Positions 3,535 to 29,053 of a stretch of DNA of 29,082 bases are shown piece after piece. Numbering within the stretch: position 1 is the stretch's first letter; every line of letters starts with the position of its first letter. The stretch is from a virus, in IMG/VR virus record IMGVR_UViG_3300019871_000005, positions 1 to 29,082 of that record. The stretch is one strand, 5' to 3'. The notes under the pieces were generated by a model. That model did no database searches. It worked only from the letters and a program-made list of their open reading frames with translations, and had not been told where the DNA came from. The position numbers and the translations under genes were made by a program.

Positions 3535-3674
3535 CTGCCCGGTGCGAAGGATGACGAGTTCTTCCACTATTAATGGAGAGGTCGCGGGTTCAAATCCCGT
3601 CCGGCTGGTGAACTGGCCGGTAGCTCAGCATGGCTAGAGCACTTACGACGCGTCACCGATTTGATCTCGGGCAG
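3535..3674 (+). ncRNA. Y RNA 2 with embedded permuted tRNA domain
   Basis: The outer stem is CTGCCC (3535-3540) / GGGCAG (3669-3674). The Ro-site blocks are GGTGCGAAGG (3541-3550) and TTTGATCTCGGG (3660-3671), with upper stem TGACG/CGTCA (3552-3556 / 3651-3655). Inside is a tRNA in permuted order: variable-loop-like AGGTC, T arm (stem 3584-3588/3596-3600, loop TTCAAAT), acceptor 3' strand CCGGCTG (3601-3607), a closing loop, acceptor 5' strand TGGCCGG (3614-3620), TA, then D arm (GCTC 3623-3626 / GAGC 3637-3640). The anticodon arm is replaced by the Ro-binding stem. This is the architecture known for YrlA-type bacterial Y RNAs, which mimic tRNA. Confidence 0.85.
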
Positions 3675-3686
3675 TTGCAACACCTG

Positions 3687-3759
3687 TCGGACGTGGTGTA
3701 GTTGGCAGCACGCCTCCGCTTTGGAGGGGGTAGTGCGGGTTCAAGTCCCGCCGTCCGGC
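3687..3759 (+). tRNA. tRNA-Gln-like with irregular anticodon arm
   Basis: Acceptor TCGGACG/CGTCCGG (3687-3693 / 3752-3758; first pair U-G), D arm GTGT/GCAC and T arm GCGGG-TTCAAGT-CCCGC are sound, and the D-arm sequence is typical of bacterial tRNA-Gln. The anticodon region is odd. The best helix is CCTCC-GCTTT-GGAGG with a 5-base loop. A standard 7-base loop CTTTGGA (anticodon TTG, Gln) needs a G-G mismatch at the loop base. The 3' CCA is not encoded. It is either a real Gln tRNA or a decayed or repurposed one. Confidence 0.6.
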
Positions 3760-3783
3760 CTGGACAACTCAACAGAGAGCTTC

Positions 3784-3865
3784 GCGCGCCTGGTGCGAAC
3801 GACACCTCCGGCTACTTCAATTGGTGAAATCACGCCGGAATGCCACCCCCTGATCTCGGGCGCGC
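3784..3865 (+). ncRNA. Y-RNA-like hairpin 3 (short form)
   Basis: The outer helix GCGCGCC (3784-3790) pairs with GGCGCGC (3859-3865). Ro-site blocks are GGTGCGAACG (3792-3801) and CCTGATCTCGGG (3849-3860). The upper part contains CCGGC/GCCGG and a terminal TTCA-ATTGG-TGAA hairpin. No tRNA domain is present; 82 bases. Confidence 0.75.
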
Positions 3866-3876
3866 ACACCACTGAT

Positions 3877-4025
3877 AATGCCTGGTGCGCAGATGACACA
3901 TACTTCAAAGGGAACCAAAGGTCACGGGTTCAAATCCCGTCCGGACAGTCGCCCCCACTTTGTCCGGTAGCTCAGCGGTAGAGCATTGGTACGAAACAGT
4001 GTCATCGACCTTGATCTCAGGCATT
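3877..4025 (+). ncRNA. Y RNA 4 with embedded permuted tRNA domain
   Basis: This is the clearest element. The outer stem AATGCCTG/CAGGCATT has 8 perfect pairs (3877-3884 / 4018-4025). Ro-site blocks are GGTGCGCAGA (3884-3893) and CTTGATCTCAGG (4010-4021). The upper stem GATGACAC/GTGTCATC has 8 perfect pairs (3892-3899 / 3999-4006). The inserted tRNA-like domain has T arm ACGGG-TTCAAAT-CCCGT (3924-3940), a perfect 7-bp acceptor CCGGACA (3941-3947) / TGTCCGG (3961-3967) closed by a 13-base loop, TA, and D arm GCTC/GAGC (3970-3973 / 3981-3984). Conserved T-loop and D-loop GG residues suggest a tRNA-like elbow. Confidence 0.88.
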
Positions 4026-4033
4026 CAGACTTA

Positions 4034-4119
4034 CTGCCCGGTGCGAAGATGGGTGGATACTTCGTCGCCATCCCTCCGGTGTGACAGCCGGAACCACCCG
4101 TCACGATGACCTCGGGCAG
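4034..4119 (+). ncRNA. Y-RNA-like hairpin 5 (short form)
   Basis: The outer stem is CTGCCCG (4034-4040) / CGGGCAG (4113-4119). Ro-site blocks are GGTGCGAAGA (4040-4049) and the variant GATGACCTCGGG (4105-4116). The upper stem is GGGTGG/CCACCC (4051-4056 / 4094-4099) with an inner CCGG hairpin. It ends seven bases before tRNA-Asn, so the two are presumably cut from one transcript. Confidence 0.73.
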
Positions 4120-4126
4120 CAGACGT

Positions 4127-4202
4127 TCCCTCGTAGCTCAGCTGGCGGAGCAGCGGATTGTTAATCCGAAGGTCGTTGGTTCGAACCCAGCCGGGGGAGC
4201 CA
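4127..4202 (+). tRNA. tRNA-Asn (GTT), CCA encoded
   Basis: A full cloverleaf: acceptor TCCCTCG/CGGGGGA, TA, D arm GCTC/GAGC, anticodon loop TTGTTAA with GTT at 4160-4162, variable AGGTC, T arm GTTGG-TTCGAAC-CCAGC, discriminator G and encoded CCA (4200-4202). One G-A mismatch lies at the outer pair of the anticodon stem. It is the only tRNA of the array with CCA in the DNA. Confidence 0.9.
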
Positions 4203-4244
4203 AGGTAAGGGGCTGCGACGGCAGGAAAATCCACCTCCCCGAAA

Positions 4245-4302
4245 ACGCCGGTGCCTTGCGCGACAGCCTAGAGCTGAGAAGGCGAAGGATATGGCTCGGC
4301 GT
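4245..4302 (+). ncRNA. Possible decayed Y-like hairpin
   Basis: ACGCCG (4245-4250) pairs with CGGCGT (4297-4302) and GCCTT with AAGGC inside. CCGGTGC on the 5' side and GGCTCGGC on the 3' side recall the Y-RNA blocks, but the GCGAAG and TTGATC cores are missing. It may be a degenerate Y RNA or just spacer structure. Confidence 0.25.
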
Positions 4303-4305
4303 CAA

Positions 4306-4379
4306 GGATCCTTAGCTCAGTCGGATAGAGCAGCAGATTACGGATCTGCAGGTCGGGGGTTCGAGTCCCTCAGGTTCCG
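4306..4379 (+). tRNA. tRNA-Arg (ACG)
   Basis: Acceptor GGATCCT/AGGTTCC with one T-T mismatch, D arm GCTC/GAGC, anticodon stem GCAGA/TCTGC with loop TTACGGA (ACG at 4340-4342), variable AGGTC, T arm GGGGG-TTCGAGT-CCCTC, discriminator G. CCA is not encoded. The A34 would need host TadA to become inosine. Confidence 0.88.
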
Positions 4380-4410
4380 CTGGTCCGATCCCTTGGTGGG
4401 TCCGGGCCTC

Positions 4411-4449
4411 GCTGGCGCAGCATGGAATTGGTGTCCACGCTCCGCCAGC
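4411..4449 (+). ncRNA. Long imperfect hairpin between tRNA-Arg and tRNA-Ile
   Basis: GCTGGCG (4411-4417) pairs with CGCCAGC (4443-4449); AGC/GCT and TGG/CCA extend it with single mismatches to a 9-base loop. There is no T run. It may be a processing or stability element in the array transcript. Confidence 0.35.
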
Positions 4450-4454
4450 ACCAA

Positions 4455-4529
4455 TGGGTCTTAGCTCAGCACGGTTAGAGCACCTCCCCGATAAGGAGGT
4501 GGTCGAAGGTTCAAATCCTTCAGACCCAA
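4455..4529 (+). tRNA. tRNA-Ile-like (GAT) with C33 and U1-A72
   Basis: Acceptor TGGGTCT/AGACCCA, D arm GCTC/GAGC, perfect anticodon stem CCTCC/GGAGG, T arm GAAGG-TTCAAAT-CCTTC, discriminator A. The loop is CCGATAA, giving GAT at 4490-4492, but position 33 is C where nearly all tRNAs have U, and the first pair is U-A rather than G-C. The fold is otherwise complete. Confidence 0.78.
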
Positions 4530-4546
4530 CGTGGCTATTCACACGC

Positions 4547-4716: not shown

Positions 4717-4735
4717 CACCAGCCATGTGCTGGTG
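4717..4735 (+). promoter_or_regulatory. Leader hairpin before the Ro-protein gene
   Basis: CACCAGC (4717-4723) pairs perfectly with GCTGGTG (4729-4735). The 3' arm runs into GGTGCGACG, a copy of the Y-RNA 5' block, just before the SD. It could be a processing site between Y6 and the mRNA, or a site for feedback by the encoded protein; both are inference. Confidence 0.4.
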
Positions 4736-4756
4736 CGACGACAAGGAAGGACAGGC

Positions 4757-6424
4757 GTGGCCCGCTTCAACACCACCAAGCACACGAGCAAGCCACTTGT
4801 CGCTACGGTCAAGAGCCCCATGGGCTCCACCACAGAACAGCCCAACACCCGTACCGCGCTCGGTGCGTGGGGCTGGACTCGGACGCCCCAGGGAGAGCTG
4901 TTCCTGATGTCCTCCGGCGCCCTGCTCGACGGCGAGGACCACCTCCACGAACTGGGCAGTGACCGCGACAACCGGTTCTCCCGCCTCGTACGCACCACCA
5001 CGGCCGAGGACCCGGCGTGGACCGGGGACATGCTCCGATGGCTCCGCACGGACGGCAACATGCGTACCGCTCCTGTGATGGGCGCCGCCGAGTTTACCGC
5101 CGAAAGCCTCCGCAACAAGGCCCCCGGCTCCCGCAGCGTCGTCGACTCGGTCCTCCAGCGTGGCGACGAGCCCGGCGAGATCATCGCCTACTGGACGGCC
5201 ACGTACGGCCGCCGCCTCCCGAAGCCGCTCAAGCGCGGAGTCGCCGACGCCGTACGCCGCCTGTACAACGGCAAGTCCCTCCTGAAGTGGGACAGCGACA
5301 AGGGCTACCGCTTCGGCGACGTCCTCAACCTTGTCCATGCGAAGCCTGACCCGTCGAAGCCGTGGCAGGGCGACGTGTTTCAGTACGCCCTGGACCGCCG
5401 CCATCACCCGGCCACCGCAGTTCCGCCCGCCTCCAACCGCACCCTCACCGCCCACCGGCGGCTGATGCAGATGCCGGTCAAAGAGCGTCGGGCCGCCATC
5501 GTCTCTTCCAACGGTTCGGCCCTGATCGCCGAGGCCGGACTGACCTGGGAAGGACTGGCCGGATGGATCCAGGGCCCGCTCGACAAGGCGGTCTGGGAAG
5601 CCATGATCCCCTCCATGAACATCATGGCGCTCATCAGGAACCTCAGGAACTTCGACCAGGTGGGCGTCTCCGACGAGGTCGCCGAGCTGATCGTCTCGCA
5701 GCTCACCGACCCCGACGTGATCGCCCGCTCGCGGCAGTTCCCCTTCCGCTACCTGATGGCCCATCGTGCCACGCAGAACGCCGGATCGCTGCGCTGGGCC
5801 TATCCGCTGGAGAAGGCCCTCAACCACTCGCTAGCCAACGTGCCCGCCCTCGGCGGACGCACGCTGATCATAGTCGACCGCTCGCCGTCCATGTTCCCGG
5901 AGTACAACAGCCACTTCCCGAACATGAAGATGAAGGACATCTCCCGCGCCGACCAGGCGGCGGTCTTCGGTTCAGCCCTGGCCGTCCGCGCCGAGAACGC
6001 AACCCTCGTCGAGTTCCACGGCAAGTCCCGCGAGATCAAGTTCCCGAAGAACTCCAGCGTGCTGTCCCTCCTCGACAAGTTCGGCAGGGACTGGGGCACC
6101 AACATCCCCGACGCCATCAGCGCGCACTACGACAACCACGACCGCGTCATCATCATCACCGACGAACAGACACGGCCCGGGTTTATCCCCTCGAACAAGA
6201 ACGGACGGTTCGTCGAGCACAGTCGCATCGACGCCGTCGTTCCGCTGAACGTCCCGGTGTACATGTGGAACTTCGCCGGGTACGAAGCCTCCGCGATGCC
6301 GAGCGGCAGCAATGCCCGCTTCACTCTCGGAGGCCTCACTGACCAGGCGTTCAAGCTGATCCCCATGCTCGAAGCAGGATCGGACGGCGTCTGGCCCTGG
6401 CATGCGGTGTGCCAGGGCGATTGA
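4757..6424 (+). CDS. rsr: Ro60/Rsr-type TROVE + vWA RNA-binding protein
   Basis: 555 residues from GTG 4757, preceded by ACAAGGAAGG at 4741-4750; an upstream in-frame GTG at 4727 lacks a site and lies in a hairpin. Residues about 15-360 match the TROVE domain, the ring of helical repeats that holds Y RNAs and the ends of misfolded RNAs. Residues about 365-540 form a von Willebrand A domain with all MIDAS parts visible: DRSPS at Asp374, GTNIPDAI, and IITDEQ. Length and domain order fit Ro60 and bacterial Rsr. Family knowledge: Ro proteins bind Y RNAs, and Deinococcus Rsr works with PNPase in RNA decay. Six Y-RNA-like hairpins lie immediately upstream on the same strand, so protein and RNA partners are co-encoded. 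The purpose in infection is not known from the sequence. Confidence 0.93.
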   Translation: MARFNTTKHTSKPLVATVKSPMGSTTEQPNTRTALGAWGWTRTPQGELFLMSSGALLDGEDHLHELGSDRDNRFSRLVRTTTAEDPAWTGDMLRWLRTDGNMRTAPVMGAAEFTAESLRNKAPGSRSVVDSVLQRGDEPGEIIAYWTATYGRRLPKPLKRGVADAVRRLYNGKSLLKWDSDKGYRFGDVLNLVHAKPDPSKPWQGDVFQYALDRRHHPATAVPPASNRTLTAHRRLMQMPVKERRAAIVSSNGSALIAEAGLTWEGLAGWIQGPLDKAVWEAMIPSMNIMALIRNLRNFDQVGVSDEVAELIVSQLTDPDVIARSRQFPFRYLMAHRATQNAGSLRWAYPLEKALNHSLANVPALGGRTLIIVDRSPSMFPEYNSHFPNMKMKDISRADQAAVFGSALAVRAENATLVEFHGKSREIKFPKNSSVLSLLDKFGRDWGTNIPDAISAHYDNHDRVIIITDEQTRPGFIPSNKNGRFVEHSRIDAVVPLNVPVYMWNFAGYEASAMPSGSNARFTLGGLTDQAFKLIPMLEAGSDGVWPWHAVCQGD

Positions 6425-7485: not shown

Positions 7486-8142
7486 ATGAACATCCTGACC
7501 AAGGAAGACGGTGACAACCCGCTTGACGGCGTGGAGTTCCTGACGCTCGGACTGGCCTGGGAGCGCAACACCGTCCCCGGCGAGTCCTCAGGCATCGGCA
7601 AGGCGAAGGCCTGGGCTCAGCGCAAGAAGCGAGAAACGAACGGGCTGACCGATCCGGCCGACATGGACGCGGGCGCCCTGTTCTTCGTCGGCGACAAGCC
7701 GGTGAAGTACCTCGGCTTCGGCAACGAGACACCCTTCAAGGACGAGCCCACTCCCGCGGAACAGCACTCGGCCGTCACCACCGGCGACAGCCTTCGCGGC
7801 GAGGGAGACGGCGACGACGAGACCCTCACCTTCGACCTGCGGAACATCCCCGCCCGCTTCACCCGGTTCATGATCGTGGTCGGCGCCCACAAGCCCGGCT
7901 CCAAGATGAACGCGGTGCACGACCTGAAGGCCACCATCTATGACGGCACCGGCGGCACCAACCAGTCCGTCGCCGTCATCGAACCCTCACTCCTGGAGGA
8001 CCACGAGATCCTGGCGATCTGCGACGTCAAGCGCACCGCCGCCGCCTCATGGGTCCTCAAGGTCAACGGCTCCGGCTTCACCCCGGTCAAGGGCGACATC
8101 CGCTCACTGCTCCTGAAGTCCATCAACGCACTGGGCCGGTGA
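7486..8142 (+). CDS. TerD-family stress-response protein
   Basis: 218 residues, close to the usual 190-200 of TerD proteins with an inserted segment near residues 35-55. Family marks are clear: LGLAWERN near 21-28, ADMDAGALFFV (58-68) in place of the DLDAS-like strand, and the Ca2+-binding loop GDSLRGEGDGDDE at 100-112. TerD proteins are linked to tellurite, phage and DNA-damage stress and bind calcium through the acidic loop. Published comparative work connects Ter systems with vWA proteins and nucleic-acid processing, so its closeness to a TROVE-vWA gene is notable. The lipoprotein gene begins three bases after its stop. Confidence 0.88.
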   Translation: MNILTKEDGDNPLDGVEFLTLGLAWERNTVPGESSGIGKAKAWAQRKKRETNGLTDPADMDAGALFFVGDKPVKYLGFGNETPFKDEPTPAEQHSAVTTGDSLRGEGDGDDETLTFDLRNIPARFTRFMIVVGAHKPGSKMNAVHDLKATIYDGTGGTNQSVAVIEPSLLEDHEILAICDVKRTAAASWVLKVNGSGFTPVKGDIRSLLLKSINALGR

Positions 8143-8144
8143 CC

Positions 8145-8513
8145 ATGAAACGCTGGCACATCGCCGCGATGACACTGGCTCTGGTCTTCTCGGCCACCGG
8201 GTGCTACGGCGACGACGACAGCAAGGGCATGGGTGACGCCCCGGTGGCGACCTCCACCTCCGGCGTGCGCGCCGGTGACGACAGCCCGGGTGTCGTGACC
8301 AACATGCCGAATCACTATGGCAACGTGGCAACGAAGTGCGTCGCGGGTGCCAAGCCATGGCGCATCATCGAGGGCACCAACACCGACTACACGGGATCCA
8401 ATTTCGCCCTCGTGCAGGACCCCAAGGCCTGCGGCGGTGACTGGGTGTCCGGCGCCAGGGTGGTCATGGGCACTCGCAGCAAGGGCGTGGAAGAACCCGA
8501 CGACGGCTCATGA
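8145..8513 (+). CDS. Small secreted lipoprotein
   Basis: 122 residues with a lipoprotein signal peptide: MKRW, a hydrophobic core (AAMTLALVF) and lipobox ATGC with Cys20. The mature part is short and Asp/Ser/Thr-rich at first, then has CVAGAK and KACGG, whose two cysteines could form a disulfide. It would sit on the outer face of the host membrane; phage lipoproteins there often block superinfection, but nothing here proves that role. Last gene before the terminator at 8545. Confidence 0.75.
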   Translation: MKRWHIAAMTLALVFSATGCYGDDDSKGMGDAPVATSTSGVRAGDDSPGVVTNMPNHYGNVATKCVAGAKPWRIIEGTNTDYTGSNFALVQDPKACGGDWVSGARVVMGTRSKGVEEPDDGS

Positions 8514-8621: not shown

Positions 8622-9248
8622 ATGATCCATGAGCCGGGGAGTCTCCGCGCACGCCTGCGCACTACTGCCGACCAGGCACTACGCCTCTATGAGGCCCTTG
8701 AAGCCGTCATCCCTCACCGTCAGGTCACCGGAGAATACCGGCCCGCGATATCCCATCATCGGCGACCCGTGGCACCCATCCCATGGAATTCTGTCGCCGC
8801 CGAGTTGACACTTGATTTCCACACCGAGATACGGCGCCTCGAAATCCACCTCAAGGAACGGATCACCGGCGGCTACCTCCAGCGGCGCGGATCATCCAGC
8901 GACAACACCCGCTACGCCGTCGACTCCGTCGTCAATCTCTGCGAGACCATCGACGACAACGATGCTCTCGGCGTCCTCAACTACCTCGCCGCCTGGGTAC
9001 GCCGCGCCGAGACCTACTACAACCCCCAGGGGGGCCTGCGCCGCCTGCCCAGGGAACCCGGCGAGAAAGAGATGGCCTGTCCCTACTGCCAGCACAAGAC
9101 CATGCGCTGGCAGCCCTCCATCGGCATCGCCGTCTGCGTACGCCCCGCCTGCTGCAAGGACGACGGCCAGCGCCCCCGCTGGTCGGCCAAGTACACCCTC
9201 ACCGATACCGGGCCCGCGTTCCGCTGGGACGAGATGGAGGCGGCATGA
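8622..9248 (+). CDS. Hypothetical actinophage protein with zinc ribbon
   Basis: 208 residues. The N-terminal 140 are helical (RLRTTADQALRLYEAL, ELTLDFHTEIRRLEIHL) without a known motif. The C-terminal part has a ribbon-like set of cysteines: CPYC near 150, then CVRPACC about 20 residues on. Such proteins are frequent in actinophages next to a small HTH protein and are of unknown function. It is probably translated from a leaderless transcript and overlaps the next gene by four bases (ATGA). Confidence 0.7.
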   Translation: MIHEPGSLRARLRTTADQALRLYEALEAVIPHRQVTGEYRPAISHHRRPVAPIPWNSVAAELTLDFHTEIRRLEIHLKERITGGYLQRRGSSSDNTRYAVDSVVNLCETIDDNDALGVLNYLAAWVRRAETYYNPQGGLRRLPREPGEKEMACPYCQHKTMRWQPSIGIAVCVRPACCKDDGQRPRWSAKYTLTDTGPAFRWDEMEAA

Positions 9249-9559
9249 CCCGCGGCTGGACCTCCCAGAACCTGGCGCCCGTCGGAGACGACGAACGCCT
9301 GTGGACCATCGTCGACGCGGCCAGCCGCCTCGGCCCGCTTCCCGGTGACCCCGATGACACCCCTCTCGACACCACCATCATCCGGCTGCGCAACGCCGCC
9401 CGCTGCAACCAACTGCGCCTGCCACCCGCGGGGAAACGCCGGAGCGCACGTCCCGGACGGCCCGGCCGCTACGCCCGCGTCTACCGGGCCGATGATTTCA
9501 TCGCCTTGTACGAGAAGATGGACCCCGACAACGACGAAAGACCCCCGGCCGCCGCCTGA
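9245..9559 (+). CDS. Small helix-turn-helix-like protein
   Basis: 104 residues, start overlapping the previous stop as ATGA. The order WTIVDAASRLG, IIRLRNAARCNQLRL, RYARVYRADDFIALYEKM resembles DNA-binding proteins of the HTH_17/excisionase type: N-terminal helix pair, basic wing, C-terminal helix. It may bind DNA together with the zinc-ribbon partner. The stop lies inside the converging terminator. Confidence 0.6.
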   Translation: MTRGWTSQNLAPVGDDERLWTIVDAASRLGPLPGDPDDTPLDTTIIRLRNAARCNQLRLPPAGKRRSARPGRPGRYARVYRADDFIALYEKMDPDNDERPPAAA

Positions 9560-9575
9560 GCAGTGACCGGGGGTC
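9540..9575. terminator. Terminator shared by the converging arms
   Basis: GACCCCCGG (9540-9548) pairs with CCGGGGGTC (9567-9575) around 18 bases. It covers the stop of the plus-strand gene and follows the last minus-strand gene (stop at 9620), so it can serve both transcripts. Confidence 0.6.
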
Positions 9576-9619
9576 AGACGAACATCGGCTTCACAGATGT
9601 CAATTCATCGTACGCGCCA

Positions 9620-10267
9620 TCACGCGTATTGGCGCCGTTGCGGGTCGAGAGCAAGAGACGATGAAGAAGTCGAGGGATCCGGCTGGTCCGGGGACGAGCT
9701 GCCGTCACGGCGACAAACCAGGGCGTCCTGATCCCAGCTCGGCGTCTGCAAACTGTAGCCGTCGGGGCACGCCGGTCCCGGATCACCCTGCGGTCCCGTG
9801 GGCCCTTCAGGTCCCTGCTCGCCCTGGGCACCAGCGGGACCCGGGTCACCCTGCGGTCCTGCTGGACCCGCCACACCGCTGGAACCATCCGAGCCGTTGG
9901 AGCCGTCCTGCCCCGGACTGCCGGTGGCAGAGATGCCCTGGGCTCCGGTCTTGCCCGTGGCGCCCGTCTTCCCGGTCGGTCCTGCAGGACCAGGTGACCC
10001 TGTCGGGCCAGGCGGCCCCGAGGGACCGCTGGGCCCGACGTCACCGCGGCTGCCGGGCTTCCCGCCCACCGGTGTCGCCCCGAGACCCTGCACCTGCCGC
10101 GCCAGCGCATCACGCGCGCTGTTGGCGACGACGAGTTCCTGCTGCAGATCACGAATGCTGAAGAAAATCCCCGCCAGCAGCAGTCCCAGCAGGATGGCAC
10201 CCACAGCCACGACGGCATCCCCGCGTCTCCAGCGGTTACGCTCGGCACGCATTTCGCTCCGCGTCAC
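9620..10267 (-). CDS. Membrane-anchored collagen-like protein
   Basis: 215 residues. A basic N terminus, one membrane helix (about 17-38) and a short coiled coil (40-62) precede a collagen region: 15 uninterrupted G-X-Y triplets (69-113), a two-residue break (AT), then 17 triplets (116-166). The end carries CPDGY and a second cysteine at 184, likely a disulfide, then a Ser/Pro tail. It should trimerise through the coiled coil and collagen helix. Starts at GTG, overlapping the previous stop by four bases. Phage collagen repeats are usually in tail fibres; here the membrane helix and lysis-cassette position point instead to a cell-envelope role, which is inference. Confidence 0.8.
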   Translation of the reverse strand: MTRSEMRAERNRWRRGDAVVAVGAILLGLLLAGIFFSIRDLQQELVVANSARDALARQVQGLGATPVGGKPGSRGDVGPSGPSGPPGPTGSPGPAGPTGKTGATGKTGAQGISATGSPGQDGSNGSDGSSGVAGPAGPQGDPGPAGAQGEQGPEGPTGPQGDPGPACPDGYSLQTPSWDQDALVCRRDGSSSPDQPDPSTSSSSLALDPQRRQYA

Positions 10268-10560
10268 GTCGACCCTCCCTGTACCAACAGGATGATCACG
10301 GGCAGCAGGATGCTGATCAGCGGGACGATGACGGAGGCGATCAGCCAGCGGCGGGTGGCAACGATCCTCTCGGCATCCTTCTCACGCAGCGTTTCCAGTG
10401 TGGCAACCCGCGCCACGAGTGCCTCATGCCGAAGGTTGTAAATCTCCATATCGACTTTGCGATCGAGTCTGGAGTTGAATTCGACGATGTCCTCTTTGAG
10501 GTCGGCGAACCGTTGCTCCATACGTCTCTGGAGCTCACCGAGGGACGGCTCGTCCGCCAT
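10264..10560 (-). CDS. Small membrane protein with coiled coil (holin-associated)
   Basis: 98 residues. The N-terminal two thirds are charged and helical (LGELQRRMEQRFADLKEDI) with heptads. The C-terminal segment 71-94 is a single hydrophobic helix. GGGGAGA precedes the ATG. A one-helix C-anchored protein next to a two-helix holin and endolysin may be a second holin, an antiholin or another lysis accessory. Confidence 0.65.
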   Translation of the reverse strand: MADEPSLGELQRRMEQRFADLKEDIVEFNSRLDRKVDMEIYNLRHEALVARVATLETLREKDAERIVATRRWLIASVIVPLISILLPVIILLVQGGST

Positions 10561-10580
10561 GATTCTCCCCGATCAGACGG

Positions 10581-10838
10581 TCAGACGCCCTTCGCGGTGG
10601 ACGCCGAGTTCCGGTTGCCGACGTAGCGCGCGGCCAGCCCCTTCACGAGCGTCACCACCGCGGCGACACCGGCCGTACCGGCGGCTTGCCAGAAACTGGC
10701 ATGCAGCATGTCAGCCGGGCCAGCGGCCAGTGCGACAGCCGCCACCGCGGCGAGGAACGTCCAGATCACGCGCTCGGCGAGATCCTGCGCATACGTCGCA
10801 GCCGTCTTGATCAGAACGTTCGCCTCTTCGGGAACCAT
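10581..10838 (-). CDS. Holin, two membrane segments
   Basis: 85 residues from the ATG two bases beyond the endolysin stop. Two hydrophobic helices (about 25-41 and 48-67) are joined by a short turn, with a basic C terminus (ARYVGNRN). Size, topology and position directly after the endolysin fit small class II-type holins of actinophages. It would open the membrane to release the amidase. Longer readings of this frame run into the endolysin gene and are rejected. Confidence 0.78.
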   Translation of the reverse strand: MVPEEANVLIKTAATYAQDLAERVIWTFLAAVAAVALAAGPADMLHASFWQAAGTAGVAAVVTLVKGLAARYVGNRNSASTAKGV

Positions 10839-10840
10839 GG

Positions 10841-11725
10841 TCAGGCCCCCTTGGTGAGCGCGTCGGTGAGCTTGGCGACGGCCGCCGTCAACGCGGCGAC
10901 CTCTGTGCGCAGGGCGTCGACACCGTCGTGCGCCGCGCGGGCGTGTGCGTAGCCGGAGCCCAGCGCCGTATTGACGGTGATCTTCAGGTCGGTGACGCCC
11001 GCGTCGGTGGGCCACTGCTTCTTCACCCAGTCGCCGAGGGCAACCTGGCTCTGGAGGTCCATGTCCTTCTCCGTGTTCGTCGGGGTGGTGGGCGTCTTGG
11101 TCGTACCGTTGGCGACCGTGAGGATGGCGGTCATCGGGAACGCGCCGGGGTCACCGTGGACGTTGCCGCTGGGGACGTGCTGGTGGCCCAGGTGTCCCTC
11201 GAAGGACTCCCACCTGGACGTGCTCAGGCGCACGCCGTTGCTGGTGCCGTACGACGCCGGGTAGGCCTTGAAGGTCACACCGGAGGTGAGGGGGACGCCG
11301 TGCTGGTCGTGCGCCCACCGCGCGAACGCGGCGAGATCCCGGATCACCCAGTCGGGCAGCTCGGGGGAGTAGAGGTGAGCGATTCCCGACTTCTTCCACT
11401 TCGCGTGGGTGGTCGGGTCGCAGGTGCCGACGATCTCCACCTGCGCCACATTCAAGGTGTTGGTGGCGATGTCGGCCGTGGCATGCACGAGGGCACGGGC
11501 ACTGACATCGAAGTCGAAGTGCTGGTACCAGAGAAGCTTCTTCGCCTTGAAGTCCGGCACCGCAGTGACCGTCGGCGCCTCGGAGCCACCCTTGTAGTCC
11601 GGAAGTGACGTTCCTTCAGTGGTGTGCCACACGACGGTGTTCACGTTCATCGTGTCGCCCGGGTACTTCTTCTGGTACCACGCGCTGGTGAACGCGCCGG
11701 GATACTTCTGAGGACCGGAGGTCAT
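10841..11725 (-). CDS. Endolysin, N-acetylmuramoyl-L-alanine amidase
   Basis: 294 residues. The N-terminal 200 form an amidase_2/PGRP-type domain: zinc-ligand candidates are His34 in VVWHTTEG and His181/His183/His190 in LGHQHVPSGNVHGDPGAF. A Thr/Pro linker follows (about 207-216), then a region with a conserved actinophage pattern (QVALGDWVKKQW) and a C-terminal heptad helix, perhaps for wall binding or oligomerisation. No signal peptide is seen, so export depends on the holin. RBS AAGGAAA precedes the ATG. Confidence 0.9.
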   Translation of the reverse strand: MTSGPQKYPGAFTSAWYQKKYPGDTMNVNTVVWHTTEGTSLPDYKGGSEAPTVTAVPDFKAKKLLWYQHFDFDVSARALVHATADIATNTLNVAQVEIVGTCDPTTHAKWKKSGIAHLYSPELPDWVIRDLAAFARWAHDQHGVPLTSGVTFKAYPASYGTSNGVRLSTSRWESFEGHLGHQHVPSGNVHGDPGAFPMTAILTVANGTTKTPTTPTNTEKDMDLQSQVALGDWVKKQWPTDAGVTDLKITVNTALGSGYAHARAAHDGVDALRTEVAALTAAVAKLTDALTKGA

Positions 11726-11742
11726 GATGGGTTTCCTTAGAA

Positions 11743-11958
11743 TCAGACGATGGTCGAGACGCTCTCGTACTTAGTGGTGACGACGGTGTCCACGTTCTGT
11801 GCTCCCGCTACGAGGGAAGCAACAGCGCTGACGAAACCCCAGAGAGCGGTGTCCCCGGCCTGGAAGGACATTCCGCCGAGGGTGACGCTCGCCACCGGAT
11901 CGCCGGGGTTTTGGGTGTCGAATCCGCTGACATTCACGCTGATGAGGGACGTGGCCAA
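11743..11958 (-). CDS. Small hypothetical virion-associated protein, TTG start
   Basis: 71 residues. A TTG at 11958 is chosen because AAGGGG lies seven bases upstream; the longer open frame to 12078 overlaps the previous gene without a site. The sequence is beta-rich and neutral (SVNVSGFDTQNPGDPVASVTLGG cut at Gly-rich turns). Located between the tail genes and endolysin; it may be a minor tail component. No family is recognised. Confidence 0.55.
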   Translation of the reverse strand: MATSLISVNVSGFDTQNPGDPVASVTLGGMSFQAGDTALWGFVSAVASLVAGAQNVDTVVTTKYESVSTIV

Positions 11959-16190: not shown

Positions 16191-19100
16191 TCACTTCTTT
16201 TTCTTGCCGTAGACGGCCTGGACGTCGCCGCCGCGTGTGCGGACGGTGCGCCGGTTGGAGTCGAGGATGACCTCGTCCACCTTCTTGTCCCCGACGTAGA
16301 CGGGGAAGATGTACGTGCCGCCCCCGCCGCCACCGCTGTAGCCGCCGCCCGAACCGCCTCCGGAGGACGGCCCGGTGTCGAGCATCGACGTCCACGCCGT
16401 ACCGACCGACCGGTTCTTCCTGATACCGACGGCGTAGCCCTCGGCCGTGTGATCACCGATCTTGGCCATGACACGGCTCGGCGAGTGGATGCCCAGGGCC
16501 TTCTTGATTGCCTTCTCCATGGAGGTAGCGATCTTCAGCATCGCGTTCTCGATGGACTTCTGCTTCTTCGTCAGACCGTCGACCAGGCCTTGCGCCGCCT
16601 TGATGCCCGCGGCATACATCGCGTCGGAGGCCGTCTTGCCAGCAGCGCTCGCAGCCGCGTTGATCTGCTTCTGCATGTCGTTGATCTGGCTGATCTCGGA
16701 GTCCGAGGCACCCAGCAGCGCGGTCGCCGTCTGGAGACCGCCGCCGGAGATACCGGCCTGTGCGATCTGCGAGATGATGCTGCCCGAGACGCCGCGGCCC
16801 TTGAGCTGGGAGAGGGCGCCAGAGAAAGCCGTCGACTGGTCGACGCTCTGACGCATCCCACCCATGATGTCGCTCATCGTGACGTTGGTGTCACTGCTGG
16901 CGACGCGGGTGATGTCGGTAGCCGACATGACGTTCGAGGTGACGGAATCCTTGAGGGATGCCGCCGCCTGCTTCAGGTCATCCAGGTGGGTCTTGGCCTT
17001 GTCGAGCGAAGCGTTGACCGAGGAGAGCTGTTTGTCGTACTTGATCAGCGACTTCCCGGCCTTGTCGAGCGACTTCAGCAGGCTCTTCTCGACACCACCG
17101 TGTGTCGCCTTGAGGATGGTGCTGCGCCAGCTGTTCAGCGCACCGACGAGATCCCCCAGAGCACTCGGCTTGCCGAGCGCGCTGCGGAACTCGTCGTTCT
17201 TGTACCCGGCCATCTTGCCGAAGTGGCTGATGGTCAGATCACCGACAGCAGCGTTGCGTGCTTCCTTCTCGGCGGCAGCAGCCGCCTTTCGCTTCGCTGC
17301 TGTCGTGCTGCCCTTGGCGAAGCCTCCAACTGCCAGCTTGGACACGTTGAGGGTGCCGTTGTTGACGGCGTTCAGGAACCCTGGACCGTACTTCCGAACT
17401 GATGAGGCACGTACAACGAACTCGTCGTTCGACAGCATCGCCGGGATGCTGTCCGACGTGCTGGTGCCGGGGCCCGACACCATGCCGCTGCCGCCGCTGG
17501 CGAGGCGCCGCACCCGGCCGCCCGTTGCGAAGCCCTTGTCCTGGAAGGTGGAGTCCACCTTCCTGTACTGGACGTTCACGTAGGACGTGCCGAGCGTGCG
17601 CCCGACGAGACCGCTGATGCCGCTCCAGAACGAAGCAGGATTGGCGCTGATGGTGACGGACTTGGCCCTCGGCTTGGACCGGTTCACCGCCGAGTAGACA
17701 CCGAAGAACTGCGAGGCGTTCGCGCTGAGGGTCGCGTCCGCCTTTTTGTTGTCGAACGCCCTCAGTTTGGCTTCGGCCTCATTGAGCTTCCGCTGCGCAT
17801 CGGCCATGTCAGCGGTGAGCTTGGCCTTGCGTTCCCTGGTCAGCTGCGGGTCCTGCAGACGGCTCTTGATGTCGGACAGGTTCCGCTTGGCCGTGTCGAC
17901 ATTGAGGGAGAGATTAGCGCGCGAGAGATTGGTGTGTGCCTTCTCGGCGAATTCCTTCGTGGCGTCAATGGCCGACCCGAAGGTTGTGTCGACCTTGGCG
18001 TGGAAGGCGTCGAAGCTGGTGCTCGCGCCTTTGAGTTTGTCACCGATGCCGGGGATCCAGCCGAACGCCGCGGCGGCCCCGCCGATCATCGCGCCCAGGG
18101 CTGTGAGGACGACGTCGCTCATGCCCTTCATCACGGTGAGGATCGTGGGTACGGACTGGATGACGGCGTCCGTCATCGTGATGACGGACTGGCCGATATT
18201 GGTGAACGCGTCCCGGATGGATCCTTCATTGTTCTGGACCCACGTGGAAATCGATTCGAGACCGCTCTTGAATCCTTCGACCTGGTCGCCGGAGAACGAT
18301 TCGACGATGGTCGAGAGAAGACCGCCGCCGAGTTCCTTGAGCGTGTCGAACATCGTGCCGAAGCTGATACGCGTCAGGTCGATCAGACTGGACGCGAAAT
18401 GCCCCAGCACACGGCCGACGGGTGCCAGCGCAGTGAACACGTCCCCGAGGTCGCCGGAAAGGTCGGAGAAGAAGTGCCCGGTTTCACGCAGGACGTCACC
18501 GATGGCCGGTCCAAAAGCCTCCATGAACTTGCCCACCAGCTTGCCAAGACCCGGCAGGAGTCCGTCGTTGATGAGCGACGACAGCCCCTTCAGGTAGAGG
18601 GAGGCCCCCTTGATCCCGGATTCCATGTTCTTGAACATGGAGGGAAGGCCCCGGTCCATGAAGCCGCCCAGCAGATCCTGCCAGGCGTCCAGAGCGGGCT
18701 GGGACTTGGTGCCGAATTCGAAGAACGCCTTCGCGAACTTTCCGAAAGACCCGAGAAACTTACCGAGCCATTCGGTGCCCATCTTGACGTTTTTGACAAA
18801 CGGCCCCATGAAATCCTTGGAGCTGATTCCCTTCGCGATTTTACCGACGAGTTTCCCGAAAGCATCACCGGCGATCTTGACAACCGGATTCAGGTCCTTG
18901 ACGACCTTCTTCACGTCACCGAAAGACTTGGTCAGCTGCGGCAGCACCGCATCCTGAGCCGACCTGCGCAGCTCGTCGAACGCACCCTTCAGGGGCTTGA
19001 GACCCTTGATGAACGCCTTCTGGCTGGCGCTCAGTTGCTTGGTCGGCTTGTCGAGACCGCTGAACGCCAGCGCCGCCACACCGACAACAGAACCAATACC

Positions 19101-19646
19101 GGCCAGCATGGGAGCGAGCGCACCGATGGTGGGCAGCAGCGACGCGCCCAGGATGACGGCCGTACCGATCAGCTTCGACCGCATGTTGCCGAAGACCTTG
19201 CCGAAGAAAGTCCCCTTATTGCCTGACCCTTGAGCCGCGTTCCCCACTCTGGTGAGAGCCCCCGAGGCGCCATCGACATCGGCGCCCAGGCGGTGGAACT
19301 CTCCTCGCATCCGGTTGATCGTGCCCGTCAAGTCCTGAAACCGGGACTGAGTTATCTCACCGGAACGCGCAGCATGCAGCGCACTGCGGCTCATTCCCTC
19401 AAGCGTGGTCTTGACCTGAGTCAGTTCCCGACGGGTAAGAGAACCAGTACTGCGCATCTTCGCGAGCTTGCTGTCCAGCGTGTTGACATCTCTACCGAGC
19501 TGCTTCGCATGCATACCAGCACTCTGCGTGGACCGGTTCACGCCCTGCAGATTTGCACGCATGCGCTGGAGTTCACGTTCGAGACGCTGAAAATCCCCAT
19601 GCGTCATATCACGAACGCGGACTGTGAGTGTAATGTCGTCAGCCAT
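16191..19646 (-). CDS. Tape measure protein
   Basis: 1151 residues. The N terminus (residues 1-150) is a long coiled coil (FQRLERELQRMRANLQG), followed by a hydrophobic stretch near 180-220 (LLPTIGALAPMLAGIG), many Gly/Ala/Lys helical repeats and a C-terminal GIHSPSRVMAKIGDH motif typical of tape measures, then a Gly-rich segment. It sets tail length; at about 1.5 angstrom per residue the tail would be near 170 nm (estimate from family behaviour). ATG overlaps by one base the TAA of the frameshifted chaperone, and GAGGGG lies just upstream. Confidence 0.95.
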   Translation of the reverse strand: MADDITLTVRVRDMTHGDFQRLERELQRMRANLQGVNRSTQSAGMHAKQLGRDVNTLDSKLAKMRSTGSLTRRELTQVKTTLEGMSRSALHAARSGEITQSRFQDLTGTINRMRGEFHRLGADVDGASGALTRVGNAAQGSGNKGTFFGKVFGNMRSKLIGTAVILGASLLPTIGALAPMLAGIGSVVGVAALAFSGLDKPTKQLSASQKAFIKGLKPLKGAFDELRRSAQDAVLPQLTKSFGDVKKVVKDLNPVVKIAGDAFGKLVGKIAKGISSKDFMGPFVKNVKMGTEWLGKFLGSFGKFAKAFFEFGTKSQPALDAWQDLLGGFMDRGLPSMFKNMESGIKGASLYLKGLSSLINDGLLPGLGKLVGKFMEAFGPAIGDVLRETGHFFSDLSGDLGDVFTALAPVGRVLGHFASSLIDLTRISFGTMFDTLKELGGGLLSTIVESFSGDQVEGFKSGLESISTWVQNNEGSIRDAFTNIGQSVITMTDAVIQSVPTILTVMKGMSDVVLTALGAMIGGAAAAFGWIPGIGDKLKGASTSFDAFHAKVDTTFGSAIDATKEFAEKAHTNLSRANLSLNVDTAKRNLSDIKSRLQDPQLTRERKAKLTADMADAQRKLNEAEAKLRAFDNKKADATLSANASQFFGVYSAVNRSKPRAKSVTISANPASFWSGISGLVGRTLGTSYVNVQYRKVDSTFQDKGFATGGRVRRLASGGSGMVSGPGTSTSDSIPAMLSNDEFVVRASSVRKYGPGFLNAVNNGTLNVSKLAVGGFAKGSTTAAKRKAAAAAEKEARNAAVGDLTISHFGKMAGYKNDEFRSALGKPSALGDLVGALNSWRSTILKATHGGVEKSLLKSLDKAGKSLIKYDKQLSSVNASLDKAKTHLDDLKQAAASLKDSVTSNVMSATDITRVASSDTNVTMSDIMGGMRQSVDQSTAFSGALSQLKGRGVSGSIISQIAQAGISGGGLQTATALLGASDSEISQINDMQKQINAAASAAGKTASDAMYAAGIKAAQGLVDGLTKKQKSIENAMLKIATSMEKAIKKALGIHSPSRVMAKIGDHTAEGYAVGIRKNRSVGTAWTSMLDTGPSSGGGSGGGYSGGGGGGTYIFPVYVGDKKVDEVILDSNRRTVRTRGGDVQAVYGKKKK

Positions 19647-27379: not shown

Positions 27380-27913
27380 TTAGCGCTCCTTCAGTCTTGT
27401 CTGAGCCGCTTCGAGAGCGCCAGCAACACGACGCATGAGAGCCGGGTCGTCATTGAAGCGCCCGATCCCCCAGTTGCAGTTGTCACACGCCAGACCCCGT
27501 ATGCATGCCCCGCAGGTCCGTTCACCTGAGCAGCAGGAGTGATCGTGGTCGACGTGCGGGGTGTTGGCTTTGCCCTCGCCGAACTTCCGCTGGCACAAGT
27601 AGCAGCGGTTGTCCTGCTCGTCGAGCATCGATCGCCACTCAGCGAGCGTCAGGTTGTATTTGTACGCCAGCCGATGATCTGGGTTACGCGCCTGCCAACG
27701 ACGAGTTGCTCGCCGAGTCGGCTCAGGATCCGCTGCTCGAATCTTGCGGGCCATGTCCCGGTTGTACGTCTTACGCACTTCGGGGTCGTCCCAGTTGATG
27801 CGGCGCTGCTTGTTGTGCTTCCCGCAGGCGCAACCCGTGGGGCACTTCTTCTTGGGGGCCGGGGTGTGCTTGAGACAAGTACACCCCGGCACGCACTTCG
27901 CTCGTCCTGTCAC
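27380..27913 (-). CDS. Endonuclease VII-family (HNH) free-standing endonuclease
   Basis: 177 residues from GTG 27913. The catalytic module is clear: CYLC near 103-106, HVDHDH, then RGLACDNCNWGIG, the zinc and ββα-metal layout of recombination endonuclease VII relatives. The N terminus has two small cysteine motifs (CVPGCTCLKH, CPTGCACGKH) found in phage homing-type nucleases. It lies between the capsid gene and other virion genes, with its own promoter and terminator, which fits a mobile homing endonuclease rather than a dedicated junction resolvase. Confidence 0.88.
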   Translation of the reverse strand: MTGRAKCVPGCTCLKHTPAPKKKCPTGCACGKHNKQRRINWDDPEVRKTYNRDMARKIRAADPEPTRRATRRWQARNPDHRLAYKYNLTLAEWRSMLDEQDNRCYLCQRKFGEGKANTPHVDHDHSCCSGERTCGACIRGLACDNCNWGIGRFNDDPALMRRVAGALEAAQTRLKER

Positions 27914-27946: not shown

Positions 27947-29053
27947 TCAGCGAGTCTGGAGCTGAATGAACGGCGCAAGGGTGTTAGAACCCCTGTTGGG
28001 AGTGATGGCGGACTGGATCCACGGACGCCCGTCCACGCGCTCGATAAAGCGAACTGTGGTCACGTCGTTTTGAAAACGATAGTGAGGGCTGGTGTCGGCC
28101 TGGACGGTCTGGCGGTCGCCGAGCAGGTAGTAGCTGAGGTCGACGAAGTTGATGTCGCCCGCGGTACCGACCGAGTTGACCTTTTCCGTGAAGTACACGG
28201 GGCGGCCGAGGATGGTCATCGGGGGGCCGGTGACGCCGTTGTTGAGCCAGATCGCGGAGCCGCCGGTGCCGACCGAGAGTGCCATGGTGGCCAGCTCGGG
28301 GAAGGTGTCGATGTGGGCGATCCACACCGCGCTGTCCAGCGAGGACGGGAGCATCCGGCTGTACATCTTGACGATGTTTTCCCAGACGAGGGTGCCTGCG
28401 GACTGGCCGGTTTCCTTGGTGACGGTGACGGTGGCGGTGGCGTTGAGGAAGCCGAGGGGTTCGCCGACGCCGCTGCCGCGGATGAAGGCGATGTCCTCGA
28501 ACCAGGCGATTGCTTCCGGGAAGATTTCGTTGATGAACATTTGGAGCGAGATGATCGAGTCGGCGAACAGCTCGTTCGGGATCTCGGAGTACGCGGTGAG
28601 CTTCTTGGCTTCGAGCTTGACCCGGCCGAAGGTGGGTGCGGAGTCCGTGAGGGATGCGGCCTCTTCGGTCCAGTAGGCGGTGACGCCGCCGTAGATGTTC
28701 GACGCGTTCGACGTGGTGTCGATCATCGGGAAGGGGACGGTGAGCGTTTCCATCGGGACGACGCGGGCCCGGGAGCGAACGATTGCCTTTTCGAGTGCAA
28801 CGCGGAGAAGTTCGCTGCGGAGGTACTCGGGGATCAGGAACCCGCCGTCGGCCGGGACGTTCGAGCCGAAGGAGTTCATGACCTCCTTGATCTTGTGCTG
28901 GCTGGCGAGGGCGTCCGCGGAGCGGGTGCCGTGCCAGATCGACGTCATGAAGTCCTTGACGTCCGGGAACAGCTCGTCCAGCTGGGCACCCGGGGCGTTG
29001 GGGTTGTACTTGTCGCCGATGCGGGCGTGCTTGGTGGAGGTGGCCGGGCGCAT
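27947..29053 (-). CDS. Major capsid protein, HK97 fold, N terminus probably incomplete
   Basis: 368 residues from ATG 29053. Hallmarks of the HK97-like capsid family: GGFLIPEYLRSELLRVA near the start, the E-loop and spine region (VPMETLTVPFPMID, KKLTAYSEIPNELF), GEPLGFLN, and the A-domain (GRPVYFTEKVN, YYLLGDRQTVQ). The short N-terminal arm has no scaffold (delta) domain. The reading frame upstream meets TAG only inside the last 18 bases, an inverted copy of 28994-29011; if that is an artefact the protein continues beyond the window. First gene of the late operon. Confidence 0.92.
   Translation of the reverse strand: MRPATSTKHARIGDKYNPNAPGAQLDELFPDVKDFMTSIWHGTRSADALASQHKIKEVMNSFGSNVPADGGFLIPEYLRSELLRVALEKAIVRSRARVVPMETLTVPFPMIDTTSNASNIYGGVTAYWTEEAASLTDSAPTFGRVKLEAKKLTAYSEIPNELFADSIISLQMFINEIFPEAIAWFEDIAFIRGSGVGEPLGFLNATATVTVTKETGQSAGTLVWENIVKMYSRMLPSSLDSAVWIAHIDTFPELATMALSVGTGGSAIWLNNGVTGPPMTILGRPVYFTEKVNSVGTAGDINFVDLSYYLLGDRQTVQADTSPHYRFQNDVTTVRFIERVDGRPWIQSAITPNRGSNTLAPFIQLQTR

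Follow-up and report, generated by a model that had tools for sequence, protein, structure and literature searches.

In this study, we found that a collagen-like protein encoded at the end of a phage lysis cassette belongs to a large family, almost exclusively from Streptomyces, whose members combine a transmembrane helix, a collagen region and a small two-cysteine tip, and whose genes are coupled to a small partner gene. From this anatomy and gene coupling follows a membrane-anchored, wall-spanning rod with a partner that carries a cytoplasmic coil. We propose that the two proteins form a trans-envelope device, and that in phages this device is made late and most likely helps the envelope to break or to be released. 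We give this proposal about an even chance of being right.

The window analysed, 29,082 bases long, comprises a single virus record (IMGVR_UViG_3300019871_000005). Its late genes lie on the minus strand and run from the capsid protein (27947-29053) through a long open reading frame (16191-19646), whose size and position suggest the tape measure, to the lysis genes and the collagen gene. The cassette, all on the minus strand, consists of an endolysin (10841-11725; phrog_1493, E 8.1e-8), a holin (10581-10841; phrog_443, E 3.1e-11, with a Pfam r1t holin match below the cut-off), a one-helix partner of 98 aa designated P1 (10264-10560; phrog_38457) and the membrane-anchored collagen-like protein of 215 aa (9620-10267; Pfam Collagen). 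This gene order and the PHROG matches confirmed the setting described in the first-pass annotation, namely a position after a holin, an endolysin and a one-helix membrane protein. The collagen gene is the final gene of the late run and faces opposite-strand genes at 8622-9559. It begins with GTG, which overlaps the TGA of the partner by 4 nt (GTGA), and a Shine-Dalgarno-like GGGAGGG stands ahead of this overlap at 10273-10279 (minus strand). Because the start has both features, the transmembrane helix lies inside the rod gene. The region 9570-11800 matched 59 Streptomyces phage records, and the endolysin was under nearly all of the 40 matches listed.

Other genes of the same phage were also noted. 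At 4727-6424 and 3535-4530 (both plus strand), a TROVE-domain (Ro60-type) protein comes immediately after five clustered genes predicted to encode tRNAs; at least one of these could be a tRNA-like Y RNA. A TerD-domain protein (7486-8142, plus strand) adjoins a small lipoprotein-like open reading frame (8145-8513) in the plus-strand half of the phage, and a recombination endonuclease VII-type HNH protein (27380-27913, minus strand) adjoins the capsid gene.

From N to C, the rod protein has a basic N-terminus (flank charge +3), a transmembrane helix, a 32-residue spacer, a G-X-Y region and a two-cysteine domain. The helix covers residues 18-36 (10160-10216, minus strand, as for the following parts), with a Kyte-Doolittle peak of 2.75 in a 19-residue window and an N-terminus predicted to be cytoplasmic. 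Alignments showed that the juxtamembrane spacer (10064-10159), a probable short coiled coil, ends in a conserved ARDALARQVQxLGxxPVxG. The collagen region (9770-10063) has 98 residues with one interruption (GISATG), and exactly 32 triplets were counted behind the helix, the number reported initially. It scored 56.1 bits against PF01391 (cut-off 27.2; E 3.2e-15). The longest unbroken G-X-Y run was 17 triplets, while the part of the protein from the helix onward, shuffled 20,000 times at constant composition, never gave more than 8; the repeat is far beyond chance. The C-terminal 49 residues (9623-9769) contain two cysteines (CPDGYSLQ...DALVC) and end in the tail LALDPQRRQYA. A search of PDB sequences with this domain gave no significant match, AlphaFold2 on 23 rows produced only a hairpin at a mean pLDDT of 67.6, and Foldseek returned no match to the model at E <= 0.001. 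Against the relative L026, approximate dN/dS values, at dS >1, were 0.14 for helix plus coil, 0.14 for the collagen region and 0.16 for the C-terminus. The rod gene is under purifying selection.

Relatives were collected from viral contigs (171 of the rod, 80 kept; 51 of the partner) and from genome contigs (127 of the rod, 80 kept), the great majority with titles that name Streptomyces. A profile search found the rod in 132 of 134 collected sequences, and in the two exceptions (L122 and L126) the partner match lies no more than about 60 bases from the contig end. We compared 180 distinct closed rod proteins, which gave 168 phage-type rods after three with a missing N-terminus or helix (L212, L158, L178), nine chromosomal proteins and those cut by a contig end were left out. 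All 168 have the transmembrane helix and two cysteines after the collagen. The lowest Kyte-Doolittle peak was 1.62 in the three tabulated classes, which hold 164 of the proteins, and the other four, with a 46-residue spacer, reached 2.64-2.79. The parts that are best conserved are the helix, the coil and the tip, the last of these strongly so across phages of many Streptomyces species; X and Y residues of the collagen are about 18% identical between random short-spacer pairs. The topology first suggested, with the rod outside the membrane, is thus supported: anchor, extracytoplasmic rod and lysis-cassette setting hold across the family. A break of the form PAPTxTPSPG then GADST(I/V)PGP recurs inside the collagen region of 24 of the 168 rods (for example L035, L072, L117 and L119); it is common to both spacer classes and both C-terminal types and is perhaps a hinge.

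An endolysin homologue was found within 4 kb upstream at 125 of 177 loci using four endolysin queries, and at the other loci three of five upstream open reading frames tested were endolysins of other kinds. The rod is named hypothetical protein in OnionKnight (gp25, with gene 24 as its partner), minor tail protein in Kromp (gp28) and collagen like minor tail in SF3 (gp25); these three and SF1 are the four cultured carriers, and all have the order endolysin, holin, partner, rod. Phage-collection protein searches with four rod proteins matched only Streptomyces phages. In SF3 (NC_028952) the gene is annotated to start within the transmembrane helix; the N-terminus is recovered when translation begins at an upstream GTG overlapping the stop of the partner. 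In SF1 (KT221033) an antisense open reading frame, gp450, is annotated instead of the rod gene. Since only four cultured carriers were found, Streptomyces lysis does not generally need the rod. The C-terminal domain occurred in 35 of 150 Streptomyces genomes sampled and in 6 of 394 genomes drawn from the class.

The rods fall into N-terminal classes with a short spacer of about 31 residues or a long one of about 66, besides the four with 46; long-spacer rods often have an extra linker ending in EVPVPIPGP. Two C-terminal types, each with two cysteines, were distinguished: type A, CPDGYSLQxPxxDPDALVCRR...LALDPxRRQYP, which occurs with both N-terminal classes, and type B, WTYTDxxGxxYxC...YxC. There are also two kinds of partner. 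P1 has a coil and then a C-terminal helix after RR, and in P2 the helix is N-terminal, with GKRGEN and then a coil behind it; in both, the coil is predicted to be cytoplasmic by the positive-inside rule. P1 stands at the 125 short- and mid-spacer loci (116 by motif, nine by eye), and P2 at 48 of 49 long-spacer loci (26 by motif, 22 by eye), L178 being unreadable. Among the 142 loci classified by motif, spacer class and partner kind agreed with zero exceptions. As the partner and the N-terminal half of the rod are contiguous, this pairing may be mere linkage combined with recombination in the repeats. At 164 of 178 loci the rod start and the partner stop overlap by exactly 4 nt, a count to be read with the fact that the choice of rod start favoured such overlaps. 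A PDB sequence search with the partner returned no significant hit.

Rod length was estimated with textbook rises of 0.15 nm per helical, 0.30 nm per extended and 0.286 nm per collagen residue. The window rod came to 34.0 nm. The 168 phage-type rods averaged 35.3 ± 2.5 nm, with 161 of them within 30-40 nm. By class, the estimates were 35.1 ± 2.2 nm for short-spacer type A rods (99), 32.8 ± 2.4 nm for type B rods (23) and 37.2 ± 1.6 nm for long-spacer rods with the linker (34); taking the entire spacer as helix gave 33.7 and 33.0 nm for the two spacer classes. As a control we used tail-type collagen open reading frames from the same loci, 12 in all, of which three were left out for low third-position GC. 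The remaining nine ranged from 54 to 189 residues and had no helix. A general law of compensation between spacer and collagen length was dropped. The two lengths are anticorrelated over type A proteins and the difference between classes persists after clustering (45 and 19 clusters), but neither spacer class shows a correlation within itself, and we claim no such law because the independent contrasts are few and the signal is largely one split between two clades.

Cryo-tomography of S. albus gave a peptidoglycan thickness of 35 ± 5 nm in vegetative hyphae, against 50 ± 5 nm in aerial ones (PMC7541840). The estimated length of the phage rod matches the vegetative wall, with an assumed rod geometry, a wall figure from one species, and per-class estimates that predate this figure in the analysis but were made with the wall-spanning idea already in mind. 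The wall-spacing half of the first-pass suggestion, which had proposed a spanin-like or wall-spacing device, has therefore gained quantitative support (35.3 ± 2.5 nm against 35 ± 5 nm); the spanin half, in the strict sense, did not stand.

The partner and the rod also occur together in some Streptomyces chromosomes. One clade of long-spacer rods, a monophyletic group of 13 rows at 100/99, keeps the P2-rod pair, and no endolysin or holin was recognised in the flanks examined. In L259, P2 and the rod overlap by 4 nt, with a pyrimidine phosphorylase gene on one side and an adenosine deaminase gene on the other. Elsewhere in the clade the neighbours include molybdopterin oxidoreductase, NADH-dehydrogenase-type and FdhD genes, or the pair is flanked by an S41 peptidase and a D-Ala-D-Ala carboxypeptidase. 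All ten flanking proteins tested matched non-phage families, and no tail genes were among them. Regions compared for this clade gave dN/dS below 0.5, and its rods are longer (43.9 ± 2.8 nm, n=9). Strong matches to this form (E < 1e-70) occurred in 6 of 150 Streptomyces genomes. Therefore, lysis is not needed for the partner-rod unit to be kept, and the chromosomal pairs suggest a host use of the two proteins; a search of titles and abstracts in the open-access literature found no description of such a use. Three further long-spacer copies with no recognised lysis genes nearby (L193, L195, L196) may be prophage remnants. At six chromosomal loci, genes for a BNR/laminin-G and a DUF4185-type protein come after the P2-rod pair, identified by family matches in L201, L197 and L204 and by gene sizes and order in L256, L257 and L260; this arrangement is a possible envelope locus of Streptomyces.

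We infer the following mechanism. The partner would sit in the membrane by its one helix, with its coiled coil on the cytoplasmic side. The rod protein would be a signal-anchored chain that probably trimerises through its juxtamembrane coil; beyond the membrane it would form a collagen rod about 34-35 nm long. In this orientation its small tip, presumably disulphide-bearing, would come out at the outer surface of the wall of Streptomyces. In phages, with its gene at the end of the lysis operon, the rod would be produced late and would most likely help to break or release the envelope once the endolysin acts, as proposed for LysZ of corynephages. The lysis role is suggested by the position in the cassette, by LysZ and by LysF1b, a mycobacteriophage protein with the topology of P2 that is needed for efficient lysis. 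A bolder idea is that the rod is a protein ruler, in which length rather than sequence has been selected to match the wall, and that the two-gene machine links a cytoplasmic coil to the rod, with phages using it at lysis and Streptomyces retaining a longer version for a purpose of the host. We put this forward tentatively, at somewhat below even odds.

Databases store the protein under tail names, both in PHROG (tail fiber, phrog_18350; collagen like minor tail, phrog_1806) and in the GenBank-type names of Kromp gp28 and SF3 gp25. For these names we considered that the rod is a tail fibre or minor tail protein whose gene happens to stand after the holin. A literature search returned no virion proteomics for any phage with the rod gene. 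Tail-type genes after the amidase of Thermobifida phage P318 have been found in virions (PMC6893835). The two concerned, ORF37 and ORF38, have no collagen repeats or evident membrane helix, so that P318 was rejected as proof of the rod in virions and shows only that genes located behind an amidase can encode virion proteins. At five loci (L113, L115, L127, L153, L089) a second, helix-free collagen open reading frame directly follows the rod gene; the two tested, from L115 and L127, resemble tail fibres, and one has a weak GDSL-lipase match. The rod family, however, is not soluble and anchor-free as a tail fibre is: every intact phage-type rod has a strong signal-anchor helix, and the tail name of SF3 gp25 depends on the start set inside that helix. 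Its best-conserved parts do not include a virion-attachment domain. Nor does the gene stand among tail genes, since it follows endolysin and holin in 4/4 carriers and has housekeeping neighbours in the monophyletic chromosomal clade. Because of the helix, the mis-set SF3 start and the chromosomal pairs, we regard the tail-fibre reading as very improbable, and "tail fiber" is probably the wrong name for the rod family.

The main rival is that the rod is a late surface-display or exclusion factor without a lysis role, whose tip masks or alters phage receptors and so blocks re-adsorption to the dying mycelium or adsorption of other phages. The estimated rod just reaches the wall surface, the unit persists in chromosomes without lysis genes, several times beside BNR/laminin-G and DUF4185 proteins, and integrase and repressor genes are present in two of the cultured carriers, OnionKnight and Kromp. 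Against this, the rod gene ends a late lysis operon with no promoter nearby in a scan limited to the sigma-70 type, its tip is highly conserved across phages of many hosts, unlike a typical receptor-adapted domain, and the cytoplasmic coil of the partner would have no obvious role. We consider this rival unlikely, at roughly one chance in four. Another view makes the partner the working protein, a holin modulator of the LysF1b or XhlA kind that acts on lysis timing, with the rod only anchoring or clustering it against the wall. The partner gene does lie between holin and rod, Kromp gp27 weakly matches a PHROG hemolysin (E 0.008), and P2 shares the topology of LysF1b, which is reported to be needed for efficient lysis (PMC13056207). 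We think this improbable, as the pair persists in chromosomes without a recognised holin, and an anchor alone would not require such tight conservation of rod length and tip. We therefore favour the trans-envelope device.

Among known systems, collagen-like phage tail fibres (PHROG 18350, 1806 and 6320) share the Pfam collagen repeats, and PHROG 18350 aligns over rod residues 19-214; the tail-type collagens of the same loci differ in being helix-free and 54-189 residues long. LysZ of the Corynebacterium glutamicum phages CL31 and Cog is an N-in C-out accessory lysis protein of 177 aa linked to lipoarabinomannan (work of McKitterick et al., as described in PMC13056207); a further mark of LysZ is a small-plaque phenotype of the deletion that is rescued when a membrane glycopolymer is lost. 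The rod resembles it in its single N-in C-out transmembrane helix, its place in the lysis cassette of an actinobacterial phage and its proposed action on the envelope outside the membrane. The two differ in that the available part of the report mentions no collagen rod and the LysZ host has a mycolic envelope; the likeness is one of description. Mycobacteriophages Girr and NormanBulbieJr depend on LysF1b to lyse M. smegmatis efficiently, and this protein, as described there, resembles the long-spacer partner P2 in its one N-terminal helix, the basic residues after it, a helical C-terminal tail predicted to be cytoplasmic and 4-nt overlaps in the cassette (PMC13056207). This N-out C-in topology is found in P2 only; P1 of the window has a C-terminal helix, and in this comparison by topology no rod gene is described after LysF1b in the available part of that report.

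Rz/Rz1 spanins likewise consist of two adjacent overlapping genes after holin and endolysin, with an N-terminal signal anchor and an extracytoplasmic coiled part, and the rod has the predicted topology and gene position of their signal-anchored N-in C-out subunit. Streptomyces has no outer membrane, and here there is no lipoprotein subunit, the window partner being without cysteine; the rod is collagen rather than a coil, and the coil of the partner is predicted to be cytoplasmic. On these grounds the spanin-like membership proposed at first fails in the strict sense. The layout of the rod is that of the animal transmembrane collagens types XIII and XVII, which have a signal-anchored chain, a juxtamembrane coil and an extracellular collagen rod; the present one is bacterial or phage-borne, and we claim no homology. 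Lysis of thick-walled monoderm bacteria is usually ascribed to holin and endolysin alone, and titles and abstracts of the open-access literature gave no description of a membrane-anchored collagen-like protein in a lysis cassette. If our reading is true, the rod allows the fit between the length of a protein and a wall to be put to the test, and a conserved wall-length rod in the lysis operon adds an envelope step in monoderms comparable to that of spanins and LysZ.
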